A DNA stretch of 41,418 nt from positions 1 through 41,418 of IMG/VR virus record IMGVR_UViG_3300025120_000155; one strand, 5' to 3'. A program made the translations under genes and the position numbers. The DNA comes from a virus. Of this stretch, positions 234 through 31,919 are shown one piece after another (the first letter of the stretch is position 1; the number at the start of each line of letters is the position of its first letter). The notes beneath the pieces were generated by a model. The model was given only the letters and a program-made list of their open reading frames with translations. It was not told where the DNA came from and did not search any database.

Positions 234-362
234 TTGCCCTGCTTAACCCCATGCGAAATACAGAAAAAAAAATTACAAATGAAAAAAATCTCAACCGCGC
301 TCACAGTATTATTTTTTGCCCCAACCGTTAGATTCAAGGGCATTCACTCCCTCGCCTGTCTT

Positions 363-6300: not shown

Positions 6301-7685
6301 CGGGAGAGAAACCTTTGATGGTGAGTCAAGGTGGTAAATTGAACCCGAATAACGATTATCTTGCGATGAAAGAACTCACAGGCGCGAAAACCGCTGATGA
6401 TGAATACACTAAGGATTTGCCGAAAGGGAATGTTTTACACCCTAACCTCGAAAAACATTCGGATGACGCGCAGAATTGGTTGCGAACTTCAAAGAAGATT
6501 ACCAACGATGACGGAACTAAAACTGATGTTTTGAGAGGCAAGAGAGACGCGCTCCATATGACAATACCCACCGCTATTAGTGATGTGGCGATGAATGAAC
6601 ATAAGGAGATGGCAAAGATGCGCGCTAAAATCGCATTTTTCAAGATACAAAACTTGCCCGGTCAAGACCATATGCTACCCGACATTGAGAAAATACTGAA
6701 TAGCGATGGTCAACCTATGACGATAGAAGAATACGCGCAGGGGGGTTTGAATAGAGAGCAACAGTCACAATTAGATGCTAACATTTCTAAGATGATTGTT
6801 GATAAAAATGGCAACCCCATAGAAGATATTGATGATAAAGACGCGCTGAACAGTTATCACATCATCAATAGAATGCCACACTCGGAGAGTCACAATCAAG
6901 ACTTAGGATTAGAAGAGTTCACATTCAAAGATTATTTTGCTCAAAGAAAAGAAGATGCTGAATTGAATGCAGTAGCGCCGGAGTCGGATGATAACACCTT
7001 CGTCAATAAAGTGCTTGGGGTTATCAAATCAAATCAAGAATTAAGAGCGACCAAGCATGATGATAAGTTCGATATGTCGTATGAAGATGCACAGCAGATT
7101 GTTGATAACGCGAATAACTTCTTCGACATGTATCACTTTCCTAATTTGTATTTGGAAAACAAAATGCACGACATGAAAGATATGTATGGTTTGGATAACT
7201 TGACGGATTTGAAGCGATTGTTTGAGCAAGACCCGGATGAGAGGAAGAACTTTCTCGATGATGTTAAGATGTTAAAGTCGATTCATCCAACTTGGATTCC
7301 TACAAACACAGCACAACAAAGAGAGATTGATATTGCTAACGGATTAGGCAAACAAGCCGACAATACTCAACAATCACACCAATTTTATAGTTCGTATGGA
7401 CCTAAATCCAAAGAAGATATTGAAGCGGAAAAGAAAGCGTATGCGGATAAGTTGATGGAGGCTACAAAGCAACATCTTAGTGTAGGACAACAACCTGTTG
7501 TAGAGGAACCGAGTATGGTGCAAGTGCGTCAAGCACAGCAAGAAGCGGCACAGCAACCCGGACAAACGGCCTTCGCTCAACCTATGCAACAAGACGCTAC
7601 AAACGAAGAAGGTCAACAAACAGGTTTCGTTCAAGTGCTTGGTAATCCACTCACACAACCAAACCCACGGCAGAATAACCAATGA
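363..7685 (+). CDS. Giant virion-cluster protein with zinc motifs (about 2440 aa)
   Basis: I do not recognise a family. The protein is highly charged, mostly helical in character and low in hydrophobic segments. An acidic Glu/Ala-rich region lies near residues 80-105. Cys motifs suggest zinc binding: CVNC near residue 918, CGTCGG near 1492, then CPDC near 1564 paired with CGSCLGHG near 1583, the last pair resembling a DnaJ-type CxxCxGxG zinc centre. An EFGQG motif near residue 1730 recurs in the protein encoded at 15447-17003. The C-terminus is Gln-rich. The start is uncertain: ATG at 279 and TTG at 234 are in frame upstream, none has a clear ribosome site, and I prefer 363 because the residues before it look like translated AT-rich spacer. 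Position ahead of terminase and portal suggests a virion or ejected protein, which is inference. Confidence 0.85.
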   Translation: MLSKRDAPKGYVFVKAKGDADDPYDDIDYGPMTTDEFKPDPPQDKKKVKVLSAAEKAKREEAQARFREKGRERMLAAREAKEDEAPPEEEPEEAEEAEEAPDDRPGHVKANDERIPQVQQMMFDHIEELLSYGASHEEALRDASQVIGEAFIESLGADANTDAFERQHDETPFITPAMSAVFATYAEENGLDTTPYEATVKDEQILHHLGMLDKYKVKRPDKVMEALDWQSGRDGEDAHPAFQAAGMAYNEAAQTGSFDLQDALDEESFRRRQRGYKAQDQAQAESDEAEARDESNRRFEDVPPYDPRDESPRGGSPQATALDQAYQSMFEQHPVRGNTMTDDDDRGTFAPTHSATQDALIDTIQQMVQAEREREGHEHERENARREGLGEEPVERKVASDAYLTQKVYDRMQTMMNTHASKALNAIGVGGRQKLEFGRTNESGSDPIMTPTWKAIGNQLGIKTPIKVNAPDALLVGPFSGLKSLGGEPTNPFNPQYQAAIASAVARHVDTSKHGIDNIHPAIKSNGNIMRTVFESTGQVDVAQEAGLNTGREGDRNDLDTQDRQAGSVSTQEALGGGKAGTSISSGFDALLGRDSKTKLIYGDVTREELAGMSKKGRREFLERKSRAHHRALKEFMRTGKGSLFTQANKDKLAAFEHKVMMNEVEYNKRLLDAGRISRDEYNKEVGRIIALKGLENEEGDKTEEEEEMGESLNIPDVPEGHYLYADRKTGEVLTPAQREEKLASFMNTILGTHHIVQAAKRRLNDAGEDAGLIHNEGDLLALMKPPSKRTEEENARADAMTAANLDENWLKTRLTQNNEMRENIRELGISPLAFLDQVAQAFGDGENYDSLNQGAIKMMNQMGSSSDLDNDSINKMLFNFMRKRHTKEMSDMNHASKSIDQHKALREKKLGEGEHTCVNCVGSPERHGNIGENRGGKGGIRSPYLYDLMKVPSLFGVPLGELGTEANGHMPLGRGVETSLVNMYHDMKGRGDEQEDWMRTDRELANMDLPTVRYAIEQNALTRVGSATEDISSKYGVPARWTQARPKGIAADIERNPLAAETWKYAFPSTSGTERRDAHDNLQTLIKNQKQDILGAFNLLTMARRDLRTPLLFDGKMSNRGKRHMITDLVKASGQPAYRKATKDYNKFANDRTIKRDGSDDKTILGHNTKMDSWEGRMKFDEIENLNRNLQYIKYAAEELPNIQGMSEPQVKAMLKNKYGYEAYVLLGHLFRADGDIVKPEDLKAQTKTMNSALKKMRTKAADYCKNSDSHGAYGVELNRYRKSKEKHNALKEAVQVAQSKVKFDVDNNHIATLSSLYPQISEMMKTQGKNPEEGRLSEAVDALHKDVYEEKNGMNKRHRFNFALDKAGRPKASREVSRSPLDAKGGLRGRIGETLGSAINYAGGGYHAPLPTNLDDALAMLREKGVDITPEIISDLTSAETALKTTDDIKNEFKDITVNMSERDKVKANRSYTHSDKKNYSNPTGSLTRCGTCGGNACLTKDEIVAYAKAHNHELHGLTASSKGMRRWISQHGRPFEYQSYDSYNDANSCETSPQDHNEYACPDCQHWDNQVNGYVSDGICGSCLGHGTIDQNDEHLLEHIEHHPHKVGPAMDAEKIAKIANMNRIRQMGEDVEPITDPSRLLPGPQSVGTSMGDNIINDMFSSDSIRPLDLLLGRIEDGELPDIHTREDLERAKAAMKKKQRTSNILTGLKHLHADDEEEDEQPSEFGQGQVIEPIRPHPQQRLPGLGMPSNVLRDARHKAGRQSLEKQIESIKKMAKRFGLHNEVTKDDDGVETGTKYDMIEKKCNRLLAHDYRSFDDDNHEVHDLFHDVQVMLTDATNTKSEQRDLLAQGTPMLDEINAMPAGDDKEKAMKKYMSRMYKSPTWTTPLLSHKGGRVVTQWEDMHEEAFDSFGSVDISHYKTPERVRNFFKSNKDERRNRIESAFNMLSSRTWEEIKDEEDGQIMSFLKDFDSLIESGEKPLMVSQGGKLNPNNDYLAMKELTGAKTADDEYTKDLPKGNVLHPNLEKHSDDAQNWLRTSKKITNDDGTKTDVLRGKRDALHMTIPTAISDVAMNEHKEMAKMRAKIAFFKIQNLPGQDHMLPDIEKILNSDGQPMTIEEYAQGGLNREQQSQLDANISKMIVDKNGNPIEDIDDKDALNSYHIINRMPHSESHNQDLGLEEFTFKDYFAQRKEDAELNAVAPESDDNTFVNKVLGVIKSNQELRATKHDDKFDMSYEDAQQIVDNANNFFDMYHFPNLYLENKMHDMKDMYGLDNLTDLKRLFEQDPDERKNFLDDVKMLKSIHPTWIPTNTAQQREIDIANGLGKQADNTQQSHQFYSSYGPKSKEDIEAEKKAYADKLMEATKQHLSVGQQPVVEEPSMVQVRQAQQEAAQQPGQTAFAQPMQQDATNEEGQQTGFVQVLGNPLTQPNPRQNNQ
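3440..3447. repeat. First copy of the dispersed palindrome TAGCGCTA
   Basis: One of at least nine exact copies that I located: 3440, 17657, 23698, 24100, 25849, 27265, 28534, 37413 and 39052 (start positions). A random 8-mer is expected less than once in a sequence this long. All copies lie within coding regions, and they occur in different reading frames or codon contexts. The pentamer TAGCG/CGCTA is common throughout the window as well. Function unknown. Confidence 0.6.
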
Positions 7686-17010: not shown

Positions 17011-18411
17011 ATGGAGGGCTTGAGCCTTGAAACACTTGAAGAGATTGACTACGAAGTTGCTAAGCGCGACTTCAAGTTCTTCTTTGAAGACATTCTTGGT
17101 TTTCAGTTATCTCACCACCACGAAAAATGGTATAATAATCTTGAATCACAACGACGATACTGTGTGAAAGCGGCGCGTGACCACGGTAAATCAACGCTGT
17201 TCCTCGGCTACCTGCTTTGGAAAGTAGCGTTTAATCCAAAATGTAAAGCGGTTCTTATCAGCCACAGTTTGCATCAATCCATTCACCACATGAGAACACT
17301 CAATGACCTCATAGATGGAATACCTTTCATGGCGCGCATGAAGAAACCCGATTCTTGGTCAAAGACTTTCTTTGGTTTCAGCAATGGTTCAAACATTAGC
17401 GCAAAGTCTGTCGGTGGCGCTATTCGTGGTATTCACCCCGACCTCATTCTATGCGACGACATTCTGTGGGGAACGACAGATACCGAACTCCAAAGAGTCG
17501 CGAGTTGGTTTTATGAGGTTCTTGTGCCTACACTCCACCACTCTTCTAAACTTATGATTGTAGGAACACCGTTCACACCAACTGACCTTTACACGGAATT
17601 AGAACAGCGTGAGGGCTACCTCGTAGAAACATACCCTGCTATCAATGCTAAGGGTGTAGCGCTATGGCCGGAACGGTGGGATTTAGATTCTCTTGATGCG
17701 CGCAGAAATGACATGCCCGCTATTGCATTTGCTCGCGAATATCTATGTGAACCGATGGATGATATGAGCAGTTTATTCCCTTCGTTAGTTCTCCAAGCCG
17801 CGAAAGATAGCGATTTAAGAATTATAAATCGCGCAGATGGCGACCCCGACGACCAATACTTCGTCGGTTGGGACCCTGCTATCTCGTCGGACAGGTCGGC
17901 TGACTACACCGTTATGGTAGTGCTTCGTCGCCCATCTACCAATCCCGAACTGCTTGAATTGGTTCATGTGGTTCGTAGAAAGAACATGGATTTCCGAACA
18001 CAGATTATGGAGATTCAAAAACTCAACGCGAAGTTTGCACCCGATGTGATAGAACTTGAAGCAAACAACTTTCAGCGTGTGTTTGCTACTGAATTACGCG
18101 CGGACACAGACTTACCAATTAAGACATTCATTTCGACTCGGCAACGCCGAGAATCTCTTCTTATGGGATTAGTTATGCGTTTTGAGAAAGAGCAATTAAG
18201 GTTGCCGTGGGGCGATGAGAACTCCCGAACCCTTATGAGCGAGTTAGAACGGGAACTACTTATGTTCGGCATGTCGAAGAAGGGCAAGTTGGATAGCATC
18301 GGTCGCCACGATGACTTTGCTATCGCGCTTGCTTTAGCGCATTGGGGAACTACCGAGTTCCGAGAACGAATAGTTGACATTGATGATATGATGGCGGGGT
18401 TGATTGATTGA
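17011..18411 (+). CDS. terL: Terminase large subunit
   Basis: A 466-aa DNA-packaging motor with ATPase and nuclease domains. The P-loop is a deviant Walker A, R56-D-H-G-K-S-T62, typical of terminases. Walker B is ILCDD with the Asp pair at 149-150. TPF (near 188) fits the coupling motif. The C-terminal RNase H-fold nuclease shows GWDPAISS with D288, an acidic site at VIELEANN, and the late Asp pair in HDDFAIALALA (434-435). Length is normal for the family, without intein or insertion. AGGTGA lies seven bases before the ATG. It pumps viral DNA into the prohead through the portal encoded at 20165-22030 and cuts the concatemer. This is the firmest identification in the window. Confidence 0.96.
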   Translation: MEGLSLETLEEIDYEVAKRDFKFFFEDILGFQLSHHHEKWYNNLESQRRYCVKAARDHGKSTLFLGYLLWKVAFNPKCKAVLISHSLHQSIHHMRTLNDLIDGIPFMARMKKPDSWSKTFFGFSNGSNISAKSVGGAIRGIHPDLILCDDILWGTTDTELQRVASWFYEVLVPTLHHSSKLMIVGTPFTPTDLYTELEQREGYLVETYPAINAKGVALWPERWDLDSLDARRNDMPAIAFAREYLCEPMDDMSSLFPSLVLQAAKDSDLRIINRADGDPDDQYFVGWDPAISSDRSADYTVMVVLRRPSTNPELLELVHVVRRKNMDFRTQIMEIQKLNAKFAPDVIELEANNFQRVFATELRADTDLPIKTFISTRQRRESLLMGLVMRFEKEQLRLPWGDENSRTLMSELERELLMFGMSKKGKLDSIGRHDDFAIALALAHWGTTEFRERIVDIDDMMAGLID

Positions 18412-18743: not shown

Positions 18744-20165
18744 ATGTGGACGGGTTCAATCCTAAAAGACGAAGAGATAGACGCTATTTTGCGTAAAGCA
18801 AGTGGTTCTATTTCTTCTGCTAACATAGGAGATGCGCCCGCGACACAATCACAAGGCGAAGGTGAATTATCCGCACCAACTGTCGCATCTCAACCCGACG
18901 CTCAAGAGCAAGAAGAAGAGAAGAAGAAGATAGAAGATGTTGTTGCTCAACAAAGCGTTCAGCCAACTCAACAACTTAAAAGCGCTATGCCTCACAACGG
19001 GTGGTTTCAATCAATGTTCGGTAAAGATGCTGAATCAATGGTTAAGGAATTAAGAATGGCTCGTCGCGAAAGAAAGGATATGCGAGATGACATTGACCTT
19101 GCAATCAACGCAATAAGAATCGCTAAGCGGGAAGAAGTAGAATCAACATTAAAATCTCTTCCGTGGGCTGACAATCATCTTTCATCTATACGCGCTCTTG
19201 GGGTTTCCGACAGAAATCTTCACGCTTTGAGGAAACATGGTGTATCGCGCGAAGTATCATTACGAAGAGCATGCTCTATGTGGGAGAAAGCAAATGATGT
19301 GATAACAAAGTTGTCACAAGTCGAAGGTGACTTCAATGAAGAGCAGTTGCAAATATGGCTCGATTCAAGACAGATGAGAAAGGATGCTAAATCTCAATGG
19401 AAAAAGGCGCTACATCCAATTGACGCAATTAAGAAGCAAGAGGCTATATGGCTAACACAATCAGCAAACTTGCTAACAGATAGAGGTCCGCTATCTTCAA
19501 ATGAGATTTACAATTCAATAGGTTCACCAAAGCATCTAACGATAAGGAAAATGTCATCCATGCTGAAAACGCATGGAATAGAGTTCGATATTGAGAAGGT
19601 TGGAACAAACTACGGAATAGTTCGTGATGATATGGTCATCGTCAAAGATATTTGGGCTTACGCCGCAGGTTTCCTCGACGCTGACGGATATATCACAATC
19701 ACTAAGCGCGGAGAACCAAGAGCAGGATTTGTAGCGACAGGAGGTAGAGGTAAATTGCATTGTGAACAATTGCATAAATCTCTTGGGTGTGGAGTTCTTC
19801 AAACTGATTTGAAAATACACAAGAATAGCAAGCGCACACAGCACAGGCTTCAATTCTACGGTGCTGATGATTTACGCAAATTACTCAAAGGCATTTCACC
19901 ACATCTTCAAATGAAGAAAGGTCAAGCCAAAGCGGTCTTAGAACTGCTTGATATGCGCGGACGAAAAAGTGACATAGTGAAGTCAAGAAGGGATGAATTA
20001 TACCGTGTTGTTAAGTGGGAAAATTGGAAGGATGTTCCCGAAGAGCGCGACAAACTACTCCGAGAGTGGAAAGTTGAAGAGCATGAAGTCCTTGCATGGG
20101 GACAACGGGACAATGAAGTTATCCGCCTTGTGGACGATATTCACCGTATAGAGAGGCTGATTTAA
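18744..20165 (+). CDS. Fusion protein with LAGLIDADG homing-endonuclease-like domain
   Basis: A 473-aa protein in two parts. Residues 1-300 contain a disordered acidic/Gln-rich segment (20-85) and a helical region (90-230). Residues about 305-440 match a LAGLIDADG endonuclease: YAAGFLDADGYITI with G309, D312 and D314, then SLGCGVLQ, the LKG-S-PHLQMKKGQA segment typical of the second half of the fold, and a basic end. Only one LAGLIDADG helix is visible, so it would act as a dimer. There are no intein splice motifs, and the neighbouring terminase and portal are intact. The endonuclease may be mobile and fused by chance to a virion gene, or it may have been adopted for DNA binding or cutting at packaging. 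It begins right after the basic protein's stop and overlaps the portal start. Confidence 0.75.
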   Translation: MWTGSILKDEEIDAILRKASGSISSANIGDAPATQSQGEGELSAPTVASQPDAQEQEEEKKKIEDVVAQQSVQPTQQLKSAMPHNGWFQSMFGKDAESMVKELRMARRERKDMRDDIDLAINAIRIAKREEVESTLKSLPWADNHLSSIRALGVSDRNLHALRKHGVSREVSLRRACSMWEKANDVITKLSQVEGDFNEEQLQIWLDSRQMRKDAKSQWKKALHPIDAIKKQEAIWLTQSANLLTDRGPLSSNEIYNSIGSPKHLTIRKMSSMLKTHGIEFDIEKVGTNYGIVRDDMVIVKDIWAYAAGFLDADGYITITKRGEPRAGFVATGGRGKLHCEQLHKSLGCGVLQTDLKIHKNSKRTQHRLQFYGADDLRKLLKGISPHLQMKKGQAKAVLELLDMRGRKSDIVKSRRDELYRVVKWENWKDVPEERDKLLREWKVEEHEVLAWGQRDNEVIRLVDDIHRIERLI

Positions 20166-22030
20166 TGGTTGAAGAGAAAAAAGGCGTTGTTGGTCGATTC
20201 CTATCATCGTTGTCTAAACCATTCCGCCGACGAACAACCCCCGAACCTATTATGCCGCTATGGAAAAGCGGTATTCAAGAGCCTGTTCTTGTTCAAGGTG
20301 TGAGCATTCCTGCTCTTTACGCGACAGTTCAAGAGTCTGTTGTTTTAAGAACTACGATTAACACACTTTGTCAAGAAGTGTTTAGACGCGGGCATTATTG
20401 GGAGAAGAAGTTTCACAAGAAATGCACAAACTGCGAAGAAGAATACCAACATGATACGGTCAAAGAGTGTCGTTTGTGTGGGAATACGGAGTTCAAATCT
20501 CCCGATGTTGACGAAGTGCTATACCCGCGTTGGTTCTTAGACCAAAGAAACAGTATGGACCAATCATTCATGGATGTTATGCGTGAAATTGAATGGGATT
20601 TAGATATTGTTGATGACTGTTTCCTTATCCTCATCAAAGAGTATTTCATCGACCCCGATAATGGTGAAATATCGTTTATGCGAATTAAAGAAATCATGAG
20701 AGGCGACCCTACATTCATGAGAATAGTTGCTGATAAGCGCGGAGCAAGAGGTGGCAGGTATCTCATATGTCCTGTTCATCGCGATAAAACATATCCGCAT
20801 AATGGCGACTTTCATAACTGCGATGTAGAAAGATGTGGATTACCTCTCCAAGATGTTCATTTCATCAATACAGCAGGTAGCGGTAAAACACAATACTACA
20901 TCGACGGAGAAATAATCCACACAAGCAAATACAATCCATCTAAACTCTATGGTCGTAGCCCTGTCGCTACCATGTGGAGACAAGCACAAACTCTCACCGC
21001 TATGGATAATTATATCTATCTTGCATATCAAAAGCGTAGAATCCCTCGCGGTATTCTTGCAATCACCACCGACAACATTCAATCTACTGCTTCTTTTTGG
21101 AAGGGGGCAGAAGAGAAGATGGAACGCGACCCGCATTACATACCTAAAGTTGGTATCGAATCAGCGTCCGGTCGCGGTAAAGTCGAGTTCGTTCGCTTCA
21201 TGGATAGCCTTGACGAAATGCAGTATTCTCAAATCCGCGATGAAGTGAGAATGCGTATAGCGGCTTTCTATGGCGTTTCAAGTATCTTTATGATGGACGC
21301 GGGTAAATCCGGCGGATTGAACAATGAAGGAATGCAAATCCTTGTCACAAATCGTGCTGTTGAATACGGACAAAAAATATATGCTAAAAATATATTCCCG
21401 CGTTTGTTGTATGAGATGGGTGTTAAAGATTGGGAATTGACTCTTTACCCTAACGAAGAAGAAGATGATGTGACAAGACTACGACGAGATGAGCAAGAAG
21501 TCAACATCGCACAGCGTATGCAACAACTCGGATTTCAAGCAGAACTCACAGAAGGCGCAGGTAGCGATATTCGTTTCACTTATTCAAAACCCGAACCTCA
21601 ACCACAACAAGACCCTAACGCCGCAGGTGGCGGCGCACCTCCGATGCCACCTACCGGCAATCCACCGCCGGGTGGTATGCCACCTCCAATGCCGGGAGGC
21701 GGTATGCCAATGCCACCTCCACAACAAGGCTCACCTCCAATGGGCGGTGCGATGATGCCTCAAGGTGGCGGGGGGCTACCACCACAAGGCGGAGCGCCAC
21801 CCGGAGGTCAAATTATGATGATGGAAAAAGGCGGTGTAGCAGGACTTGGTGAAGGGACAGGGCAACGCGATAATGGACCTGCACCTATTTCATCCGAAAC
21901 GCATTTGAGTGGCGCGCCCTCATCTAAGAAGAACCAAAGAGGTTCGGAAAAGACTGTGACTGAACAGGCACTTGACGCAGTAGAAGCCGCAAAAGACCCT
22001 ACAAGTAAGAACCAAGAAAGCGGATTTTGA
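20165..22030 (+). CDS. Portal protein with zinc motifs and Pro/Gly/Met-rich tail
   Basis: A 621-aa dodecameric portal through which DNA enters and leaves the capsid. Typical features are the N-terminal clip/wing region (VLRTTINTLCQEVFRRG), the central HTSKYNPSKLYGRSPVA segment, and the stem/crown segment with IAAFYGVSSIFM and NNEGMQILVTNRAVEYGQ. Unusual are two Cys/His groups: CTNC at 87-90 with CRLC at 102-105 (a zinc ribbon), and C202-x2-H205 with C219-x4-C224. The last 140 residues are disordered, with a run of Pro, Gly and Met followed by a Lys/Ser/Glu-rich end. It follows the packaging genes directly, as usual. Family assignment is confident; metal binding is inferred from the motifs. 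Confidence 0.92.
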   Translation: MVEEKKGVVGRFLSSLSKPFRRRTTPEPIMPLWKSGIQEPVLVQGVSIPALYATVQESVVLRTTINTLCQEVFRRGHYWEKKFHKKCTNCEEEYQHDTVKECRLCGNTEFKSPDVDEVLYPRWFLDQRNSMDQSFMDVMREIEWDLDIVDDCFLILIKEYFIDPDNGEISFMRIKEIMRGDPTFMRIVADKRGARGGRYLICPVHRDKTYPHNGDFHNCDVERCGLPLQDVHFINTAGSGKTQYYIDGEIIHTSKYNPSKLYGRSPVATMWRQAQTLTAMDNYIYLAYQKRRIPRGILAITTDNIQSTASFWKGAEEKMERDPHYIPKVGIESASGRGKVEFVRFMDSLDEMQYSQIRDEVRMRIAAFYGVSSIFMMDAGKSGGLNNEGMQILVTNRAVEYGQKIYAKNIFPRLLYEMGVKDWELTLYPNEEEDDVTRLRRDEQEVNIAQRMQQLGFQAELTEGAGSDIRFTYSKPEPQPQQDPNAAGGGAPPMPPTGNPPPGGMPPPMPGGGMPMPPPQQGSPPMGGAMMPQGGGGLPPQGGAPPGGQIMMMEKGGVAGLGEGTGQRDNGPAPISSETHLSGAPSSKKNQRGSEKTVTEQALDAVEAAKDPTSKNQESGF

Positions 22031-22070: not shown

Positions 22071-22412
22071 ATGAGCGACTCTCTCAACAAGATGGACCCG
22101 ATGGTGCGCAAATTAGAAACGGCTATGGCCGAGTTCAAAGTTGCGCTATCAAATAATGACCTTGTATCAGCAGAACAGTTTTTGCGAAGTATTCAAACAA
22201 CAAGCGATTACCTCGCTGATGATGTGACCGCTATTTACAAATCACAAAACGAAGTTAAGATTACAGGAATCAATGACCGATACGCGGGCGGTGTTCCTGT
22301 AATGCAGTTCAACAGTATCGAAAATGTCATTGCTAAAGGAGAATCGCGACCTTTGGGCTATGTTGGCCCGGATAGAATCGGTGGCGTTTTCAAGAAGCAA
22401 GGGCAGGTGTGA
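22071..22412 (+). CDS. Small unknown protein after portal (113 aa)
   Basis: No family recognised. The N-terminal half is helical (MDPMVRKLETAMAEFKVALS) and may form a coiled coil; the C-terminal half is Gly/Pro-containing and probably a short beta or extended segment (GGVPVMQFNSIENVIAKGES). It stands in a run of three small genes between portal and the second giant gene. Such genes often encode internal scaffolding or minor head proteins, but this one gives no direct hint. Confidence 0.7.
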   Translation: MSDSLNKMDPMVRKLETAMAEFKVALSNNDLVSAEQFLRSIQTTSDYLADDVTAIYKSQNEVKITGINDRYAGGVPVMQFNSIENVIAKGESRPLGYVGPDRIGGVFKKQGQV

Positions 22413-22415
22413 AAC

Positions 22416-22766
22416 TTGCCCGATGAAGCAGACGCTATGCTTTTGATGAAAGCGCTTATTGGTAAAATGGAGGCTATGGATGCCGAGTTAGGTATGTTGC
22501 GAAAGCAAGTATCTAACCCTCAAGCGATGTTGCGAAAGTCGGGGTTTGTTAAAGCCGTCACTCCTGCGAGTGAAGATGTTTGGGGCGACCCTCTTCGTGG
22601 AGAGCGCGACAATGTTATTTCTAAAGCCGCAGAAGAAATTAGTGAATCTATGAACGGTATCTCTATGCCGTCTTCAAATGAAGAATGGCATGAAATGTCA
22701 TGGGACGATATTCACGCAATGGCTAACACAGCCGCACAGGTAGAAGGTAGGAGAGTGGACCAATGA
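22416..22766 (+). CDS. Small protein with C-terminal MSWDDIHAMA motif
   Basis: A 116-aa protein starting at TTG 22416, preceded by AGGTGTGA and following the previous stop by three bases. Residues 5-40 are helical (LLMKALIGKMEAMDAELGML), probably a coiled coil. Near the C-terminus is MSWDDIHAMANTA, which closely matches MSWDDVHRMADKA at the very end of the prohead protease/scaffold protein at 29374-30774. In HK97-like systems the end of the scaffold contacts the capsid protein, so this protein may dock to the shell through the same peptide; that is inference. Its stop overlaps the next start as ATGA. Confidence 0.75.
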   Translation: MPDEADAMLLMKALIGKMEAMDAELGMLRKQVSNPQAMLRKSGFVKAVTPASEDVWGDPLRGERDNVISKAAEEISESMNGISMPSSNEEWHEMSWDDIHAMANTAAQVEGRRVDQ

Positions 22767-23101
22767 AACCAATGAAAGTCGAAGCAGGTGAAAATGCACC
22801 GGATTTAGAAGCGCTACTCAAAGAAGCAAAAGTGGTTGCAGATAAGTTTGACACCAAAGTAGGCAACTTGTTTCAAAATGTTACAGGTGTTGAGGCTGTC
22901 AAAACAGGCTATTACGATACCAACCAACGCCACATTGAAGCCGAAGATATTAAGCGAACAGAACCAAAGAAAGAAGAAGTCAACTTGGATGCTATGCAAC
23001 ATTCATCACACGACGATGCGTTGTCTGCACATGAAAACACAGCAGGGGACAAATCGGATAAAAATCCTCCGGGCGCATATACAATGACCGATTACTATTG
23101 A
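22763..23101 (+). CDS. Small acidic unknown protein (112 aa)
   Basis: An acidic, largely disordered protein with a short helical N-terminal part (DLEALLKEAKVVADKFDTKV) and a charged middle (KRTEPKKEEVNLD). No domain or family is recognised. The ATG overlaps the previous stop (ATGA) and the stop is followed after a few bases by the ribosome site of the 2077-aa gene. Position suggests a minor head or assembly role. Confidence 0.7.
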   Translation: MKPMKVEAGENAPDLEALLKEAKVVADKFDTKVGNLFQNVTGVEAVKTGYYDTNQRHIEAEDIKRTEPKKEEVNLDAMQHSSHDDALSAHENTAGDKSDKNPPGAYTMTDYY

Positions 23102-23113
23102 GGTGGTGGTCGT

Positions 23114-26100
23114 GTGTCTAAAGACAATCCTACACAATACCATACGCGCACAATAGACCTTTTTGTTAAATCGTATTTTGAAGGATATTCTGCGCTCAAT
23201 GAAGCCGCAGATGTAATGTTTAGCGCAAACAATTTAGAAAATCATGGACTTTTTGTTCCATCTTTCATTCATCATATTGAGAATTACTTAGCAAAAGCCA
23301 AAATCGCGACAGTCACAAGCGGCGATTTACCCCGTAGAGAACAAGCCAACATTATCAACACGCGTAGTCAAGAGGTCACAAGGGGTCTAAAGCACCCCAA
23401 AGAAGCGATACTAATGTTTGACTTCGATGATTGGTATGATTGCTCACCTAATGGCAAAAACCCTAACCCCGAACGCAGAAGAGAACTCGCACAGCGTTTT
23501 TTGAGTTGGGATATACCAACAAAACCGCGTGAAGGTAGCGCACCCGACGCAGAAGAACATCCTTTCCGTCACTTAAATCTCACTCACTCTCAATCATCAT
23601 TCGCCTCATCCAACTCTTCTACTCCGATGATGGTTCAAATGATTCAAACAATCTTTAACGGTAGAATGGATGGTGAACCTACGCGCAAACTCATGGATAG
23701 CGCTATGGCTGATATGGGTGTTAATCCAAGATTGGCTCAATCTCAAAACATGGGTAAGTGGTCTAATTCCGCTAACGAAGCAGGATATAACAAACAATTT
23801 GTAGACAACTTTCGCAAGTATAGGGATGAGTTCAACGATAAGTTCACATCATTAACCGTCAATGAAGATAGACTGAAAGCCATCATTAAAAACAGAAAAG
23901 AAAATGGCACATACAAAAGTGATGAGAACGCGCGTAATTTATTGGTGAACTCACAATTAAAGAATCACTTCTTTCAGCACAAAATATGGGAGTTGCGCGG
24001 AGTTCCCGATGATTACATTTGGGATAACCTGTATGGTGAAGGTGGAATAATAGAGCAAGAGAACACGAAGCGATTGAAGGCGAAGAGTGAGTCAAGAGAT
24101 AGCGCTAAATACCGTTCGGGTTTTTGGATGATGTATTTCGGCATACCTCTTATTGACTATGAAGACAAGATAAAGTTCTCGGAATGGTTTTTAGATGGTG
24201 GAGGCCATATAGATGGCGTTAACTACGAAATGCCTAATCCTCGCTTTGATGATAAAGAAATCAATAGGATATTAGGACACAATGCAAGAGGGTTTCTCAC
24301 AAGACATGTTTCCTCCTTTGCTAATGCGCTACATGGTGTCTATTCGGGTAATGTCGGCACATCCGGTTTCAACTCATTACCCGGAGGAACAGTCGGTCAA
24401 ACGCGCGGTCAGCAAGATATGACGCGCAATAAAGACTTCAAACAGAAATTACTAAAAGTAGGGGCGGCAAATGAAAACATCCAAGATGATGATGTAATAG
24501 CGCTTATTGACGAAGCAGGTATTACGCGAGAGATGCAAAACGAAGTTCTTGCGAGTTTGCCTTCTTCTACCAATGAAGATGCTACGCTACTTGACGATGT
24601 AGGTGAGGGTGAAGATACTCCGAATTATCATACTGCGCTAAACGAACAAGATTTGAAACAAGTTATGCATCAATTTGCGCAAATCTATGGTAAGAAAGGT
24701 TCGACAGCAGACAATAAAGAGTTCTTGAATAATTCCAAACATACTTTCAAGTTGAAAGACCATTTCTTTGACCCCATGAAAGGTGTGCCGGAATTAGATA
24801 AGACACTTCTATACTACATGAGCCACGCTATCGGTAATCTACAAGGTGCGCATGGTGAAGAATGGTCACACTTTGACGATGCTGTGAACGAAGCATTCCC
24901 TTCTGTCTTTGTCACTCAAGAAGAGCCAATGATTGATGATGAAGAGCGCGAAAGAGTTCTACCTTCTGTGAAAAACACTGTTGACACTTTAGGTTCTTCT
25001 TACATGAAACCTTCTTTGTTTCAAGATGTGTTCCAATCCAAACCCGATGACCCCGCACACACTAACATCAAACAGGATTTGATTGCGGCTATGAGGCGCG
25101 CAGAAATGAGTGAGGGTGAACAGGATGAAAAGTTAGCAGAATATGAACAAGGTAAGCCTGTCAAAGTTCCATTCCCGCAAGGAGTTGGTGAAAAACAAAC
25201 CGCTACGCAAGCAGAAGATGTTGACGAAGAAGAATACATGGAGGATAAATTACCTATGGGTGTTGCTGAATATGTTGGTGGTTATCAGCAAACATCATCC
25301 CCTGTCACAGCCGGACATGCCGGACTCATCACACCGCTACTATCGCATGATGAGAATCAAAGGAACCCCAATCACTTTTCAGCAGATTACAATCACCATT
25401 GGGTGAGAGATTTAGAAAACGAAAACCGACCAAGCGACAGCATCTTAGCAATGAGACATGCGCGACTTGAATCGGATAAAATAGGTGGAGTTTCTAAGAG
25501 TCGTGCGAAAAAAGGCGCAGACGGTGAAACATTAAGACGAGTTGGAGATTCAACATTCGGTCGAGATGTAAAAGGGGTTGAAAGACACAGCCCAAGTAAA
25601 GGTATAATCGGAAAAAAGAAACGAAGCCTTCATTCATCCGAAGTAACCAAAGATGAGGCATACAACCGTATGCTTATGATGCACACTTTACTCTTTCAAG
25701 CGCATCATGGTATTGACAATTATAGCGAAGAAGACCATTCATCACATCACGAAAAACAAACCATGCCACATACAGTCTACAAAACCAAACATCGCGACCC
25801 GTTAGGTAGAGGTGAAGATGCAGGTAAAACATATCAAAATGAATTACTTAGCGCTACTAAAGACGATAACCCATTCAATGCAAAAATAGCGGTCTATGAC
25901 AAAGACGAATATGAGGCGGCAATAAAACGCTTTGAAGAAGACGGAGGCGTTCTTCGATTGCCGGACACTCTAAAAGATAACATTGGCAGTAGAAGAGAGT
26001 TAGAGCAAGAGTTGATGGCTACAAGTAGCGATGGTGGTAGTTTTCATCTATCATCAAACGGTTCAACTGTTTCGGAATTAGGTTTTGCTGAAAGGAACAG

Positions 26101-29100
26101 ATTGCGTAATGATGTGATGCAGAAGCCTAACTTTACAGGGTATTACGGTGAAGGAAAGCAATACATTGTCGCGCCTAACCCTTTATCACATTATCAAGAC
26201 GCGCTATCGGATTTGAGAAGATACGCAAGAATAGAACACAAACATGGACGCACAGAAAGCGCAGTTAATTTTGAAAAATTAGCAACTGAACAAGCACGAC
26301 ATGTTGTGGACGAAGTAGGTGAAATGCCTTCTATCACACAAGATGAATTGCGCAAAAATTACTTAGATGATGCACAAGAGATGCATGCTCAAGCAGTAGC
26401 GGCAAGTCAAATCATGAAGCCTTTATTGAAATGGGCCAACCCCGACATGTTTCAAACTCACACGCCTAAACTTGCGAATCAAGCGTGGGCTGATACCAAA
26501 ATGCTCGCGCATCTATGCGAAACATGGATGAGAACACTAAACCCCGAAGAAAGAAAGAATTGGATAAAGAATGCAACAGTTCAGTCTTCGCGCGATGGCG
26601 CACAAAGCGAATCGGTTATGAATATCCTAAAGTCTCATTTTGAGAATCAAGGTATGAAACCTGCCGCTATTGAGTCACGCATTAAGAGAATGACAAAAGA
26701 TGTGACTAAGCCGCTACAAAGGCAGACATGGCAAGGTGGCGACATTCGACGCAACATAGAGATGGGTGATGAGGATAAATCAGTCATGAGTATGATGCGA
26801 AGGTATGTCGATGGTGAATTGGACTCAAGCCATTACCCACTTCATGAGAAAAATGAATTAGTGAAGAAAATCTTTGATGAAGTAAGTCGCGTATTGCCTA
26901 AGAACGCTACACCTCAAGACTTTGCAGATGTTCTACATGCTCGATATATACCTCATCGCGCTAAAGGTCGCGAGAAAGACGAAGACGGTAAAATGATTGA
27001 TACGGGTGGTCAAAATCTAATGCAAGAATTACCTATTGATTCAGTTAAGGAGTTTGGTTTAGGTGACGGTCAAAAGGCTTACAATTACAAATCGGCTAAA
27101 GGAGGACACCATCATGAAGCCGAACTCGATGAATATACGCCTTTGATGAGTGGCGGTGAAGGAATTAGAAGAAAGGGTGAGGGAACTAAGCCGGATTACT
27201 CTATGTATGCAGAAATACACGCGCTAAACAAAGTGTATCGCGCCCTGCTCAAGCAATCCAAAGGTAGCGCTAATGCTATCGAAGCAGTTCCGCATAAGAC
27301 AGCACCTTTGAAGAAAGACACAAGCGATAAAGGATTTGAAAATCTAACAGAAAGATTTGGTAATTTCATTGAGCGTTTGAAAGGTGATGTAAAAGGTATC
27401 ACTAACGAAGCAGGTAAAATCAACACACAGTTTGAGCCTGTTGGAACAGGCGGTATTGGTGTTAATGAAATACAATTACCTGCTGTTCACAGTTGCCCTA
27501 AAGCGAACAGAACTTTTGGTCATGTTATTCTACCTTCAAGAAGAATCGCTACACATGGATTGAGAGAGAACAGACTCATTGTTCACGACGATGAAGGTGA
27601 TTATCATCAAGGTGAATCAAACATGAAGATGAGAATGGACCCTTACGCGCTTCGTGAGTTTCACCCGGAATTACCACCATACGATATATCAGCAGACGGG
27701 AATACGCTATTCCCACCTGTCGCTATGCAACCATCCGGTATTCCGGGTGAAAGTGTTAATAGCAACTTTCCTGTGTTTAGCGATATGGGGTCGGGTCAAA
27801 TGTTAAACAGGTCCGACATTGAACTTCTTGATTCTTTAACTGATGATACACTGATTTACAAGAAAGATGGTCGCCCCGTTCCTGTCAAATCAATGCACAG
27901 AATCTTTGATTATAGCGACTTGAAACATCTACGCGGATTTAGCGGTGATTGGGTAGCGTCGCATATTCCTAAAGGTGAACCAATTATACTCCAAAAGAAA
28001 GGTAAGCGCGTTAAAGCGTATAATGCGGGTATGAAGTTGGTTGAATTGACCGACGATATAGATGATGAAATGGGTAAAGTCAACGAAAAAGACTTTGTTG
28101 TTCATGCAGTAATTGATGGAGATATGCTTTACTTCATCGACTTACTTGAGGCGGCAGATGAGAAAACTCACAACATGCCCGCTAAAGACCGAGTTAGGCA
28201 TTTACGCGCACACTTTGAATCATCGGAACATATCAAAATGCCCGAACCGTATAACACAAAGCGCGCGGATGATGAAGGGTTAGAAGAAGCAATTCATCTA
28301 TTACGCGAAGAATCTTCTTGCGATATACTGCTACGCGATGCATCGGCTACATACATGAGAGGGGAAATACGACACCCTAAGTGGGTTCTTTTGAGTAAAG
28401 AAAAGAAGATTGATGTGATTATTCTTGACCGTAAAGGAATGAATTATCGTATCGGTGTTGGGCCAATTATGCATCCCGAACATTACGGTTCGCGTTCAGT
28501 AGAGTTGAATGGTCAACACTACATGGATGTTGGTAGCGCTAAAGGCCCAAGAGGGTATGACAAAGGTGAATACATCTCCGTATTTTGCACAGGTGCTACA
28601 AAAGCAGGTGATGAGAATCCTACATACAAATTGCGCTCGGCAAGAGTTGACCGAGATGCGAACCCTCAAGCCGCAGATAGCGTTGAATCGTTAAGTTTGA
28701 TGTGTAGCGATTCAAAGATACCTCATAAAGTTAGATTGAATAAAGGCGCTATACACATTTCATTCCCATCACTTGATGATGAAGTCATTTACAAAGTCGA
28801 TAGAGAAGAAGGTGGGTGGATGCTTGAACCTCAAAACACTCTATGGGGTCATGGAGAAGATTACTTCATTAAATTGTCCGAAGATATGCGCCCTCATTGG
28901 TCGCCAATAGCGACTATACTTCTCAAGAAAGACCAAGAGAAGGCCGTCAATACTCCAAAGCGCTACAAGAGTAAAAAAGTTGACCCCGAAGCACCCGCAG
29001 GTCACACAAAGGAACGAAAAGAAATACTTCCAAAAGAAGAAGAGATTATCAAACAAGGTCTTGAACTCCTTGAGCGCGGTCTTGAGCGATTAAAGAAAGA

Positions 29101-29347
29101 GAAAATCACATACACAGGTGTAGAAGGTCTTGGAGTTGATTACGCAGATGCAGATGTTGAGTCCCCGCGAGGGCCAACTACAAACATGAACGATGATACG
29201 CTACCGGACTTTGACCCTGCATCGCGCGATTACAAAGAAAAACCCGCTAAAACTGACAAAAAAGAAAAGGTTATTCGCACTACTGCGGGCGAAGAAGCCA
29301 TTACGGATAACAAAGGAAACATCACTATAACAAAACCGCGCGTTTGA
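23114..29347 (+). CDS. Giant protein with C-terminal ligase-like region (2077 aa)
   Basis: Starts at GTG 23114 after a clear GAGGTGGT site. Residues 1-1480 are charged and helical with no recognised domain. From about residue 1600 to 1830 the order of motifs recalls an ATP-dependent DNA ligase: FSGDWVAS (D1612) at the place of motif I KxDGxR, then VIDGDMLYFIDLLE (D1668-G1669) like the ligase xxLDGELxxFDLL segment, then MPAKDRVRHLRAHF, then RHPKWVLLSKEKKIDVIIL (K1756, K1762) like motif V WLKLK, and finally YMDVGSAKGPRGYDKGE resembling the OB-fold loop. The catalytic Lys of motif I seems to be missing, so the region is probably inactive or diverged. Residues 1840-2077 are charged. Location between portal and protease suggests a virion component. 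The ligase match is from motif order only. Confidence 0.85.
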   Translation: MSKDNPTQYHTRTIDLFVKSYFEGYSALNEAADVMFSANNLENHGLFVPSFIHHIENYLAKAKIATVTSGDLPRREQANIINTRSQEVTRGLKHPKEAILMFDFDDWYDCSPNGKNPNPERRRELAQRFLSWDIPTKPREGSAPDAEEHPFRHLNLTHSQSSFASSNSSTPMMVQMIQTIFNGRMDGEPTRKLMDSAMADMGVNPRLAQSQNMGKWSNSANEAGYNKQFVDNFRKYRDEFNDKFTSLTVNEDRLKAIIKNRKENGTYKSDENARNLLVNSQLKNHFFQHKIWELRGVPDDYIWDNLYGEGGIIEQENTKRLKAKSESRDSAKYRSGFWMMYFGIPLIDYEDKIKFSEWFLDGGGHIDGVNYEMPNPRFDDKEINRILGHNARGFLTRHVSSFANALHGVYSGNVGTSGFNSLPGGTVGQTRGQQDMTRNKDFKQKLLKVGAANENIQDDDVIALIDEAGITREMQNEVLASLPSSTNEDATLLDDVGEGEDTPNYHTALNEQDLKQVMHQFAQIYGKKGSTADNKEFLNNSKHTFKLKDHFFDPMKGVPELDKTLLYYMSHAIGNLQGAHGEEWSHFDDAVNEAFPSVFVTQEEPMIDDEERERVLPSVKNTVDTLGSSYMKPSLFQDVFQSKPDDPAHTNIKQDLIAAMRRAEMSEGEQDEKLAEYEQGKPVKVPFPQGVGEKQTATQAEDVDEEEYMEDKLPMGVAEYVGGYQQTSSPVTAGHAGLITPLLSHDENQRNPNHFSADYNHHWVRDLENENRPSDSILAMRHARLESDKIGGVSKSRAKKGADGETLRRVGDSTFGRDVKGVERHSPSKGIIGKKKRSLHSSEVTKDEAYNRMLMMHTLLFQAHHGIDNYSEEDHSSHHEKQTMPHTVYKTKHRDPLGRGEDAGKTYQNELLSATKDDNPFNAKIAVYDKDEYEAAIKRFEEDGGVLRLPDTLKDNIGSRRELEQELMATSSDGGSFHLSSNGSTVSELGFAERNRLRNDVMQKPNFTGYYGEGKQYIVAPNPLSHYQDALSDLRRYARIEHKHGRTESAVNFEKLATEQARHVVDEVGEMPSITQDELRKNYLDDAQEMHAQAVAASQIMKPLLKWANPDMFQTHTPKLANQAWADTKMLAHLCETWMRTLNPEERKNWIKNATVQSSRDGAQSESVMNILKSHFENQGMKPAAIESRIKRMTKDVTKPLQRQTWQGGDIRRNIEMGDEDKSVMSMMRRYVDGELDSSHYPLHEKNELVKKIFDEVSRVLPKNATPQDFADVLHARYIPHRAKGREKDEDGKMIDTGGQNLMQELPIDSVKEFGLGDGQKAYNYKSAKGGHHHEAELDEYTPLMSGGEGIRRKGEGTKPDYSMYAEIHALNKVYRALLKQSKGSANAIEAVPHKTAPLKKDTSDKGFENLTERFGNFIERLKGDVKGITNEAGKINTQFEPVGTGGIGVNEIQLPAVHSCPKANRTFGHVILPSRRIATHGLRENRLIVHDDEGDYHQGESNMKMRMDPYALREFHPELPPYDISADGNTLFPPVAMQPSGIPGESVNSNFPVFSDMGSGQMLNRSDIELLDSLTDDTLIYKKDGRPVPVKSMHRIFDYSDLKHLRGFSGDWVASHIPKGEPIILQKKGKRVKAYNAGMKLVELTDDIDDEMGKVNEKDFVVHAVIDGDMLYFIDLLEAADEKTHNMPAKDRVRHLRAHFESSEHIKMPEPYNTKRADDEGLEEAIHLLREESSCDILLRDASATYMRGEIRHPKWVLLSKEKKIDVIILDRKGMNYRIGVGPIMHPEHYGSRSVELNGQHYMDVGSAKGPRGYDKGEYISVFCTGATKAGDENPTYKLRSARVDRDANPQAADSVESLSLMCSDSKIPHKVRLNKGAIHISFPSLDDEVIYKVDREEGGWMLEPQNTLWGHGEDYFIKLSEDMRPHWSPIATILLKKDQEKAVNTPKRYKSKKVDPEAPAGHTKERKEILPKEEEIIKQGLELLERGLERLKKEKITYTGVEGLGVDYADADVESPRGPTTNMNDDTLPDFDPASRDYKEKPAKTDKKEKVIRTTAGEEAITDNKGNITITKPRV

Positions 29348-29373
29348 TATACTTGTAGCGCTTGAACAGGTCG

Positions 29374-30774
29374 ATGGCAATTCTCGCACCTTCATCCACT
29401 TCACCCCTTGTTCTCAAGGGATTCGGTGATGATTTGGTTGTAGCGGGCTATGCTTCTGTCGAGATGGTTGACAAGCAAGGCGACCTTATTACTCGTAGCG
29501 CTTTGAAAGACGCATTTGGCGGATTCATGAAAGCAGAAGCATTCCGCAATGTGCAACTTGCACACTCTAACATTCAAGTAGGAACAGTTATTCCTTCTTA
29601 TACAGATAGCAACGGTCGTGTTTGGAAATCCGAAGTGGATGACACAGGCATGTTTGTTGTTATTCAACTTCGCGGGGATATTGAAAAAGCCCGCGAAGTT
29701 GCATCCGAAATCCGTAAGGGCAACCTACGGTCGTTCTCAATAGGCGGTCAAGCCTTTGAGCGCGTCAACAAAAGCGACGCTACTCGCGGTGACTACCGTG
29801 AAATCCGTCGCATGGAACTCCATGAGGTGACGATTTGTGAGAAGGGTATTAACCCCGAAGCGCAATTTCGTATTCTAAAGGAGGACACAGGTGATACTAT
29901 GACCGACCCAATGAGTGAATTACAAAATGTATTAGAGCGACTATCCAAGAAATTGGACGAAGAAGAGAAAGACGATGATAAGAAGGATAAAGAATCCAAA
30001 GACACCGGCTTCGACATGAAAGAAAAACCCGAAGGCGGAAACCCATTCAAACCAAGTCTTGACCTCGGAGACGAAGAGGAAGAGGAAGAGGAAGAGGATG
30101 ATGAAGGTGAAGATTCAATGTATGGTGAAGATATGAAAGACATGAACAAAGCAGACGATATGATAACAATGGACTATCTTAATTGGCTTGAGCAAACAGC
30201 AAAGTCCGGCGGACATGATGTTGCAGACGCTCGCGCTCATTTTGATAGTGTGAACAAAGGATATGGACCGGGGCAATCCGGCTACGACCACCGCGGACAA
30301 GGTTCTCTTGAAGGCGCAGGTGAAGGCGAATCCTCAAAGCGACCTAAGCAGAATTGGGGTAGCGCTCCAAGCGGAAACAAGAATGTCATTAAGGGTGAAG
30401 ATTTTATCATGCCCGAAAATGTTTCTCAATCCGATATTGAAGCGGCTTACGAAGTCTACAAGGCCGCATCCGTAGAACAACAATTCAAAGGCTCTCTCGG
30501 AGATTACTTCGCAGACCGCCTATCCAAAGAACAGCGAATTGCAAAGAATGAGAAAGCGCGAGCAAAGTTTGACTCCCGCAAACCTCTTCTTGAATTGCAA
30601 AAGGCTGTTGTTGCACTTGATGACCGCATCAACCGCGTTTCATCCGGTGGTGGAGAAACACTCACTAAGAGTGCTTCGACCACATCAATTACAATTCCCG
30701 ATACTACGGAAATGGCTAATATGTCGTGGGACGATGTTCACCGAATGGCCGACAAAGCATTGAGGGGAGAGTGA
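29374..30774 (+). CDS. Prohead protease fused to scaffold-like acidic domain
   Basis: A 466-aa HK97-type (U35/S78-like) maturation protease. Residues 18-170 show the fold: VAGYASVEMVDKQGDLI, the candidate catalytic H64 in QLAHSN, the candidate catalytic S122 in LRSFSIGGQ, and ELHEVTICEKGINPEAQF near the domain end. Residues 180-465 are acidic and helical, with a run of Glu/Asp near 230-250, as expected for an internal scaffold that is later digested. The last residues, MSWDDVHRMADKALRGE, are likely the capsid-contact helix and recur in the protein at 22416-22766. ATG 29374 is preferred to an in-frame TTG at 29362. The capsid gene follows after five bases. The capsid protein lacks a long N-terminal delta domain, which agrees with scaffold function residing here. 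Confidence 0.88.
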   Translation: MAILAPSSTSPLVLKGFGDDLVVAGYASVEMVDKQGDLITRSALKDAFGGFMKAEAFRNVQLAHSNIQVGTVIPSYTDSNGRVWKSEVDDTGMFVVIQLRGDIEKAREVASEIRKGNLRSFSIGGQAFERVNKSDATRGDYREIRRMELHEVTICEKGINPEAQFRILKEDTGDTMTDPMSELQNVLERLSKKLDEEEKDDDKKDKESKDTGFDMKEKPEGGNPFKPSLDLGDEEEEEEEEDDEGEDSMYGEDMKDMNKADDMITMDYLNWLEQTAKSGGHDVADARAHFDSVNKGYGPGQSGYDHRGQGSLEGAGEGESSKRPKQNWGSAPSGNKNVIKGEDFIMPENVSQSDIEAAYEVYKAASVEQQFKGSLGDYFADRLSKEQRIAKNEKARAKFDSRKPLLELQKAVVALDDRINRVSSGGGETLTKSASTTSITIPDTTEMANMSWDDVHRMADKALRGE

Positions 30775-30779
30775 AATAT

Positions 30780-31919
30780 ATGGCACGAAATTATGTAAGA
30801 ACAGTTCAAGATATGGAAAGATACTACTACGGTGGTGCGGCTCAAACAGGCTACACCTACGGCGCAGGTGACATTCTCAAAGCAGATAGCCCAATGATGT
30901 CAACCACAGCCGGAACTTACCAAGCGGTCTACGGTCGTAAGGTTTGGTCACAGTTGAACCAAGAGTTCAACGCCTTCTCTATTCTACCGAAGAAGCCGTG
31001 GGAACGAAGTGGATGGCGTATTCTAACCGACCGCGCTGAAAGCGGAGTCACAGGCGGTATTGCAGAAAACGGAACGCTACCGGACACCAAGCGACCGGAG
31101 TTCCTTCATGTTGCCGCAAAGCCAAAGACCATCGCGCACACTTTTGACTTGTCCGAAGTGAGCATGTTCTTGTCCGACAAGGATGACGGTCTTGGAGATG
31201 TTCGCCAAGTTCTCAAAGAAGAAATGGGTAAGCATCACGCTGAAATGGTCAACAAGATGCTTCTTGTTGATGTTGACACTCCTGCCGGAAACAACTTTGA
31301 ATCTCTCGACAGATTGGTTTCCGACCCGGATAAGATGACCACAGGAACAGGCCATGTAAGCGCTACCACTGACCACGACATGTATTCTATTACTCGCGAC
31401 GGTAGCAAAGATTTCCATAGCGCAGAAGTAGATGTTGCGGCGGCTAACCGAAACCTATCGCTAAACCAACTTGATGGATTATTCCAACAGATTTGGACTC
31501 GCGGTGGTAATCCAAAGGTTATGCTAACAGGATATGATACGCTTATGCGCGCTCAACAACTGTTGCAATCTCAACAGCGATTCATGGACTCCAAGAGAAT
31601 CACTCCTACATACTCCGGTGTGAAGGGTGTTCCGGGTATTGAAGCAGGATTTATCGTTGCTACATACAACGGAGTTCCTATTATCCCAACAAAGGATATG
31701 CCGGATGAAGGTGCAAGTTCACTATCTCGTATCTATTACCTTGATACTGATTACTTGTGGTTCCAAACTGCAATTCCTACACAATACTTTGAATCCGGTA
31801 TCGAAACCGGCGACCCATTCGCGATTAACAGGCTCGGCCAAGAAGGGCTTTACCGAACTATGGGTGAACTATGGGGTAGTTTCTTTGGTGCAAGCGGTTC
31901 AATTCGTGACCTACAATGA
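30780..31919 (+). CDS. Major capsid protein, HK97 fold
   Basis: A 379-aa shell protein. Its place directly after the protease/scaffold gene and its sequence texture fit the HK97 fold: a short N-terminal arm, an E-loop region near residues 45-100, a long spine-helix candidate (DVRQVLKEEMGKHHAEMVNKML, about 140-160), and the late P- and A-domain segments GNPKVMLTGYDTLMRAQQLL and GVPIIPTKDMP. Such segments are typical of tailed-virus and encapsulin shells. Translation from the ATG at 30780 gives MARNYVRT; an in-frame ATG at 30726 lies inside the protease gene and is rejected. A GGGGAGAGTGA stretch just upstream serves as ribosome site. Codon use looks more GC-rich at third positions than in the giant genes, as expected for high expression. 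Confidence 0.9.
   Translation: MARNYVRTVQDMERYYYGGAAQTGYTYGAGDILKADSPMMSTTAGTYQAVYGRKVWSQLNQEFNAFSILPKKPWERSGWRILTDRAESGVTGGIAENGTLPDTKRPEFLHVAAKPKTIAHTFDLSEVSMFLSDKDDGLGDVRQVLKEEMGKHHAEMVNKMLLVDVDTPAGNNFESLDRLVSDPDKMTTGTGHVSATTDHDMYSITRDGSKDFHSAEVDVAAANRNLSLNQLDGLFQQIWTRGGNPKVMLTGYDTLMRAQQLLQSQQRFMDSKRITPTYSGVKGVPGIEAGFIVATYNGVPIIPTKDMPDEGASSLSRIYYLDTDYLWFQTAIPTQYFESGIETGDPFAINRLGQEGLYRTMGELWGSFFGASGSIRDLQ

Follow-up and report, generated by a model that had tools for sequence, protein, structure and literature searches.

What has become of a DNA ligase fold that is carried by a giant protein of a viral head-gene cluster, and what could it be for? The question arises from the IMG/VR virus record IMGVR_UViG_3300025120_000155, a fragment (41 kb) of 41,418 bases that was analysed over its whole length (the window). 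A gene with a GTG start, at 23114..29347 on the plus strand, encodes a protein of 2077 amino acids. An earlier note, made from the letters alone, had seen a degenerate ATP-dependent DNA ligase in the C-terminal part of this protein. We conclude that this part does descend from an ATP-dependent DNA ligase, of which it has kept the nucleotidyltransferase and OB core. Judged from its residues the domain is catalytically dead: the lysine that attaches the nucleotide is lost, as are other catalytic residues. It is nevertheless not decaying; its fold is kept under strong purifying selection.

A ligase fold recognised through its family

The case for a ligase rests on the family, because the window protein searched singly gave almost nothing. 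No match was obtained in the PDB and phage collections; Pfam returned only noise for the whole protein and, for the trimmed domain, a sole match to PF01068 (ATP-dependent DNA ligase domain, DNA_ligase_A_M) at E 0.13. Weak matches to Lipocalin_4, CCDC-167 and PksE were dismissed as noise. The family, at first of 5 contigs, grew to about 465 IMG/VR contigs through successive alignment-based scans of viral contigs; two scans of cellular genomes gave zero relatives.

With these relatives the ligase signal is clear. PF01068 matches 24 of 32 relatives at E up to 1 and, in the larger set, 60 of 83 at E up to 0.1 (best E 1.1e-8). Among the long relatives 37 of 50 contigs match it, 19 of these above the Pfam curated cut-off. 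When PDB sequences are searched with the family profile, archaeal DNA ligases come first (4eq5, E 1.2e-5; E 4.6e-7 with the profile of one clade). Aligned by hhalign with nine fetched annotated DNA ligases, the family scores 70 (E 1.1e-8), as against 20 at most for the controls, which were ligases reversed or column-shuffled.

The predicted structure agrees. An AlphaFold2 model of the window domain built with 83 sequences reached a mean predicted local distance difference test score (pLDDT) of 91.9 and a predicted template-modelling score of 0.77; with 8 sequences the pLDDT had been 40. Foldseek of the model against the PDB gave a best E of 1.7e-13 over 353 alignment columns, and among the matches listed 50 of 50 are ATP-dependent DNA ligases. 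The TM-scores do not exceed 0.56; such moderate values may mean that the two subdomains are placed differently relative to each other in the model. Viral predicted structures also agree with a ligase fold. The fold is common to the whole domain and to the archaeal and eukaryal ATP-dependent DNA ligases (4eq5, 3rr5 and 2cfm of Thermococcus/Pyrococcus; human LIG1). Neither outcome that the earlier note had named as refuting its ligase reading, a different predicted fold or the lack of any profile match to ligases, has occurred.

The region modelled covers residues 1580-1941 (27851..28936; this and all other parts of the giant gene are on the plus strand) and comprises the nucleotidyltransferase core, the OB domain and a small C-terminal extension. 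The OB-fold part spans residues 1764-1863 (28403..28702), approximate limits set by eye from the secondary structure of the model and the Foldseek coverage; it closes with an ADSVESL-like motif that resembles the end of the OB domain in ligases. The whole domain runs slightly beyond the interval first given for it (27860-28720), to about 28936.

Loss of the catalytic residues and conservation of the domain

The domain keeps the ligase motifs in their order (I, III, IIIa, IV, V), the helix after IIIa and the Y-G-R-W residues between IV and V; it has lost the catalytic Lys, the Glu of motifs III and IV and the Lys of motif V. The earlier note had built its reading on five strings, all of which were located in the giant open reading frame (ORF) at residues 1609-1616, 1666-1679, 1688-1701, 1753-1771 and 1803-1819, that is at nucleotides 27938-28570 and inside its proposed interval. 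Their assignment to motifs needs revision in part: the placements of motif V and of the OB fold stand, those of motif I and of the DGE segment are out of register.

For motif I, HMMER pairs the ligase sequence KYDGARVQVHKDGDKV with the family sequence WPxGERVIVEKKGKKV. This puts IPKGEP (residues 1618-1623, 27965..27982) at the ligase K-x-D-G-x-R. The string FSGDWVAS, formerly taken for motif I, is the preceding strand; the motif is held by HIPKGEP (residues 1617-1623), eight to nine residues later. The absence of the motif I Lys, which the earlier note had suspected, is confirmed for the window and for all 153 distinct relatives, none of which retains KxDG. In place of the Lys stands mostly an aromatic Trp or Tyr, otherwise Ile (as in the window and the sequences closest to it), Phe, Leu or Ser. 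In 38 of the 153 distinct sequences the motif reads WYDGKR where ligases have KYDGxR; other relatives read WPEGER.

Motif III, FILDGE in ligases, corresponds to FVVHAV (residues 1661-1666, 28094..28111) rather than to VIDGD, as had been proposed; the placement is partly by eye and alignment-dependent, the family and ligase profiles differing in length there. The Glu is lost, mostly to Ile or Val, and the position reads D[A/G][I/V] or HAV. The next element, LYFIDLLE (28127..28150), is motif IIIa, LNLFDILY in ligases, and its Asp1676 is invariant. Of the quoted strings, LYFIDLL is motif IIIa and MPAKDR the helix following it.

At motif IV, CDILLRD (28319..28339) replaces the ligase EGLMAKR: EGxxxK has become xx[I/V]LLR, the Glu being lost and the Lys replaced by Arg1741, found in 151 of 153 sequences. 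Downstream, at 28349..28396, a STYMxGExRHPKW signature runs into the motif V position WVLLS (WLKIK in ligases), where the lysines have changed to Leu and to Ser, Arg or Thr. With its flank, RD-x-STYMxGExRHPKW is a nearly invariant signature, new to this family. The invariant basic residues R1741, R1753, H1754 and K1756 lie at or near motif positions. With motifs III, IV and V changed as well as motif I, the inactivity first proposed from the missing Lys is now predicted from several positions.

Between the window and its two closest relatives, the ratio of nonsynonymous to synonymous substitution rates (dN/dS) is 0.06 in the domain versus 0.15-0.20 in the N-terminal 1550 residues. In 40 complete homologues the best-conserved parts of the protein are the ligase-like domain and the C-terminal tail (KITYTG ... 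SPRGPT ... DDTLPDFDPASR; 29102..29344, delimited from the conservation profile), the remainder being poorly alignable.

Gene order, virus group and a second ligase-like gene

The genes of the window are ordered as in the head module of a tailed virus. TerL (17011-18411) is followed by an HNH-endonuclease-domain protein (18744-20165; phrog_5046, E 3e-11), the portal protein (20165..22030, plus strand; phrog_18178, E 2e-74), three small ORFs of 113, 116 and 112 amino acids (22071-23101) and the giant gene. Its immediate downstream neighbour is the prohead (head maturation) protease (29362..30774, plus strand; phrog_23555, E 2e-15), and then comes an HK97-type major capsid protein (MCP; 30726..31919, plus strand; phrog_24667, E 7e-56). 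Among loci with enough flanking sequence, some of which are overlapping copies of one contig, the portal is upstream of the giant gene at 105 of 105 and the protease and MCP are downstream at 120 of 120. By this fixed position the giant protein belongs to the head module. A gap of about 1.05-1.6 kb between portal and giant gene is kept in the relatives listed.

Complete relatives of the giant protein have 1800-2580 amino acids, and in all this length the pseudo-ligase domain sits near the C-terminus, a setting that distinguishes it from ATP-dependent DNA ligases. The N-terminal 1579 residues of the window protein hold no recognisable domain. In one homologue PF15777 (Anti-TRAP-like, zinc-binding) matches this otherwise featureless region at E 3e-5. 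A second giant ORF of the window (234-7685; 2483 amino acids from a TTG, start uncertain) has CxxC zinc-ribbon-like clusters and found no family match in PHROGs.

In the phage collection only archaeal viruses turn up as relatives of the MCP: the Druskaviridae HVTV-1, HCTV-1 and HCTV-5 (33% identical) and a small number that infect methanogen-related archaea. In the head module of HVTV-1 and HCTV-1, homologues of the portal, protease and MCP follow one another as they do here, and there too large proteins lie between portal and protease; these (gp113, gpF-like and zeta-toxin-domain proteins) are not detectably homologous to the giant protein. The long relatives measure about 90-118 kb and 14 of 18 have PolB. 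One of 108 kb (G011) encodes a Cpn60/TCP-1 chaperonin (PF00118, E 2e-133; L297:5128-6681) and another (G015) an RFC-like ATPase. Magrovirales, the viruses of marine Poseidoniales archaea, are described with genomes of about 90-110 kb, PolB, a chaperonin, a clamp loader and Druskaviridae-like head genes (PMC12999244, PMC10768690). The long relatives look like Magrovirales, since their gene content and MCP similarity match this description.

An extra weak PF01068 match in one genome (G020) led to a 459-amino-acid ORF (G020:C1:74278-75654, L299). Free-standing ligase-like ORFs of about 400-525 amino acids occur in 17 of the 28 long contigs searched (including L300-L306 and L309-L325), and KxDG is absent from all 17 ORFs examined. 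Their profile aligns with archaeal ligases over the N-terminal domain and on into the nucleotidyltransferase domain; the matches are weak (E 0.007) and 5 of 5 are DNA ligases. By hhalign the free-standing family matches the nine ligases at E 3.4e-6 and the domain of the giant protein at 7e-7, with clean controls, and its profile also detects the giant ORF in five genomes. Compared with the giant's domain, the free-standing pseudo-ligase is more degenerate, and it has kept a stretch that corresponds to the N-terminal part of archaeal ligases. Its gene is remote from the head module, seemingly on the side of the genome where PolB lies. Beyond these two genes, the profile search of the long relatives found no PF01068 gene, although a divergent enzyme could be missed, and none of 50 long contigs has an NAD-dependent ligase. 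Thus no intact ligase was found in these lineages, and the ligase-like genes that were found appear catalytically dead.

Possible roles of the domain

We give about even chances to the proposal that the domain has become a binding module devoid of catalysis, which serves head assembly or the packaging or delivery of the genome. The ligase cleft would be retained, with the invariant Arg, Lys and His of RD-x-STYMxGExRHPKW near the former active site, and would hold a nucleic-acid feature (a DNA end, nick, gap or 5'-phosphate/nucleotide) while the head is assembled and the genome packaged or delivered. The long protein ahead of the domain would, at a guess, anchor it on the inside of the procapsid or virion. 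Basic residues conserved in or close to what was the active site speak for a ligand occupying the former ligase cleft. A dead ligase with a structural role at DNA ends has a precedent: DNA ligase IV is reported to promote end joining even when catalytically inactive (PMC9638927, PMC10858965, PMC11754673).

Several points weigh against this proposal. The domain is mildly acidic, with a net charge of -6 over 362 residues in the window and a family median of -2.2 per 100 amino acids versus +0.9 in the nine fetched ligases; this argues against simple sequence-independent DNA binding or an unspecific coating of DNA. Archaeal ligases carry an N-terminal DNA-binding domain, which the giant's domain is without. 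No recognised domain occurs in the remainder of the giant protein, whose N-terminal part has zero detectable homology with the proteins in the same slot of HVTV-1 and HCTV-1. That the protein is packaged in the virion or ejected with the genome, as the earlier note had suggested, is a possibility drawn from gene position only.

More tentatively, the two dead ligases could form one system that recognises, and leaves unsealed, the ends, nicks or gaps in viral DNA that is being replicated or has been packaged, and so links replication to packaging or protects injected ends. We regard this as conceivable but doubtful.

It is rather unlikely, but reasonable given that PF21974 (the snurportin m3G-cap-binding domain) matches 32 of 83 relatives (best E 2.3e-6), that the dead pocket binds a nucleotide or a modified 5' end and not a DNA duplex. 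Snurportin-1, a eukaryotic RNA import factor, is understood to be a non-catalytic relative of guanylyltransferases, with a capping-enzyme-like fold that binds without catalysis. An mRNA capping enzyme profile also matches 3 of 83 relatives, Trp or Tyr, the commonest substitutes for the catalytic Lys, could stack a base, and Arg or Lys is invariant at the pocket motifs. But the DNA ligase matches are both stronger and more frequent, snurportin 1xk5 appears in the PDB profile search at E 2.6 only, and in the window and the relatives nearest to it the Lys position is held by Ile, which is not aromatic. Archaea are not known to have m3G caps, which also counts against a snurportin-like function.

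We also think it improbable that the domain has no nucleic-acid ligand and owes the survival of its ligase fold solely to a role as rigid interface with the portal, protease, capsid protein or second pseudo-ligase. The acidity of the domain and the strict synteny of the head module would suit such a scaffold, and the free-standing pseudo-ligase, common to many of the same genomes, could be its partner. But conservation is highest in the former motif IV-V region (STYMxGExRHPKW) and has not produced a new patch elsewhere.

A nucleotidyltransferase still active through a displaced lysine seems very improbable. One clade, with 57 of the 153 sequences, does have a Lys one residue before the Trp, as in SKWYDGKR, but this Lys is not conserved family-wide (the window has His) and the motif III Glu, motif IV Glu and Lys, and motif V Lys are gone. 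A functionless relic decaying after gene fusion, which would account for the lost catalytic residues, is hardly credible, contradicted by a dN/dS of about 0.06, the best conservation of the whole protein and its presence in about 465 contigs.

Returning to the binding module, the fold family is a known one; what is new is a natural ligase pseudoenzyme carried on a giant head-module protein, probably a case of a ligase reused as a non-catalytic binding module. Ligase-fold pseudoenzymes appear little documented: the matches of an open-literature search dealt with inactive LIG4 mutants or with unrelated "ligases" such as ubiquitin ligases. The family described here is a natural one, with strong selection and fixed synteny, in a seemingly abundant group of marine archaeal viruses. 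Magroviruses have been credited with an ATP-dependent DNA ligase, and hence with little need of the host replisome (PMC10768690, PMC12999244, PMC10160649). The dead ligase-like genes of the long relatives caution against this attribution; if the two dead ligases do form a system, the magrovirus "ATP-dependent DNA ligase" would be a pseudoenzyme, at least in these lineages.
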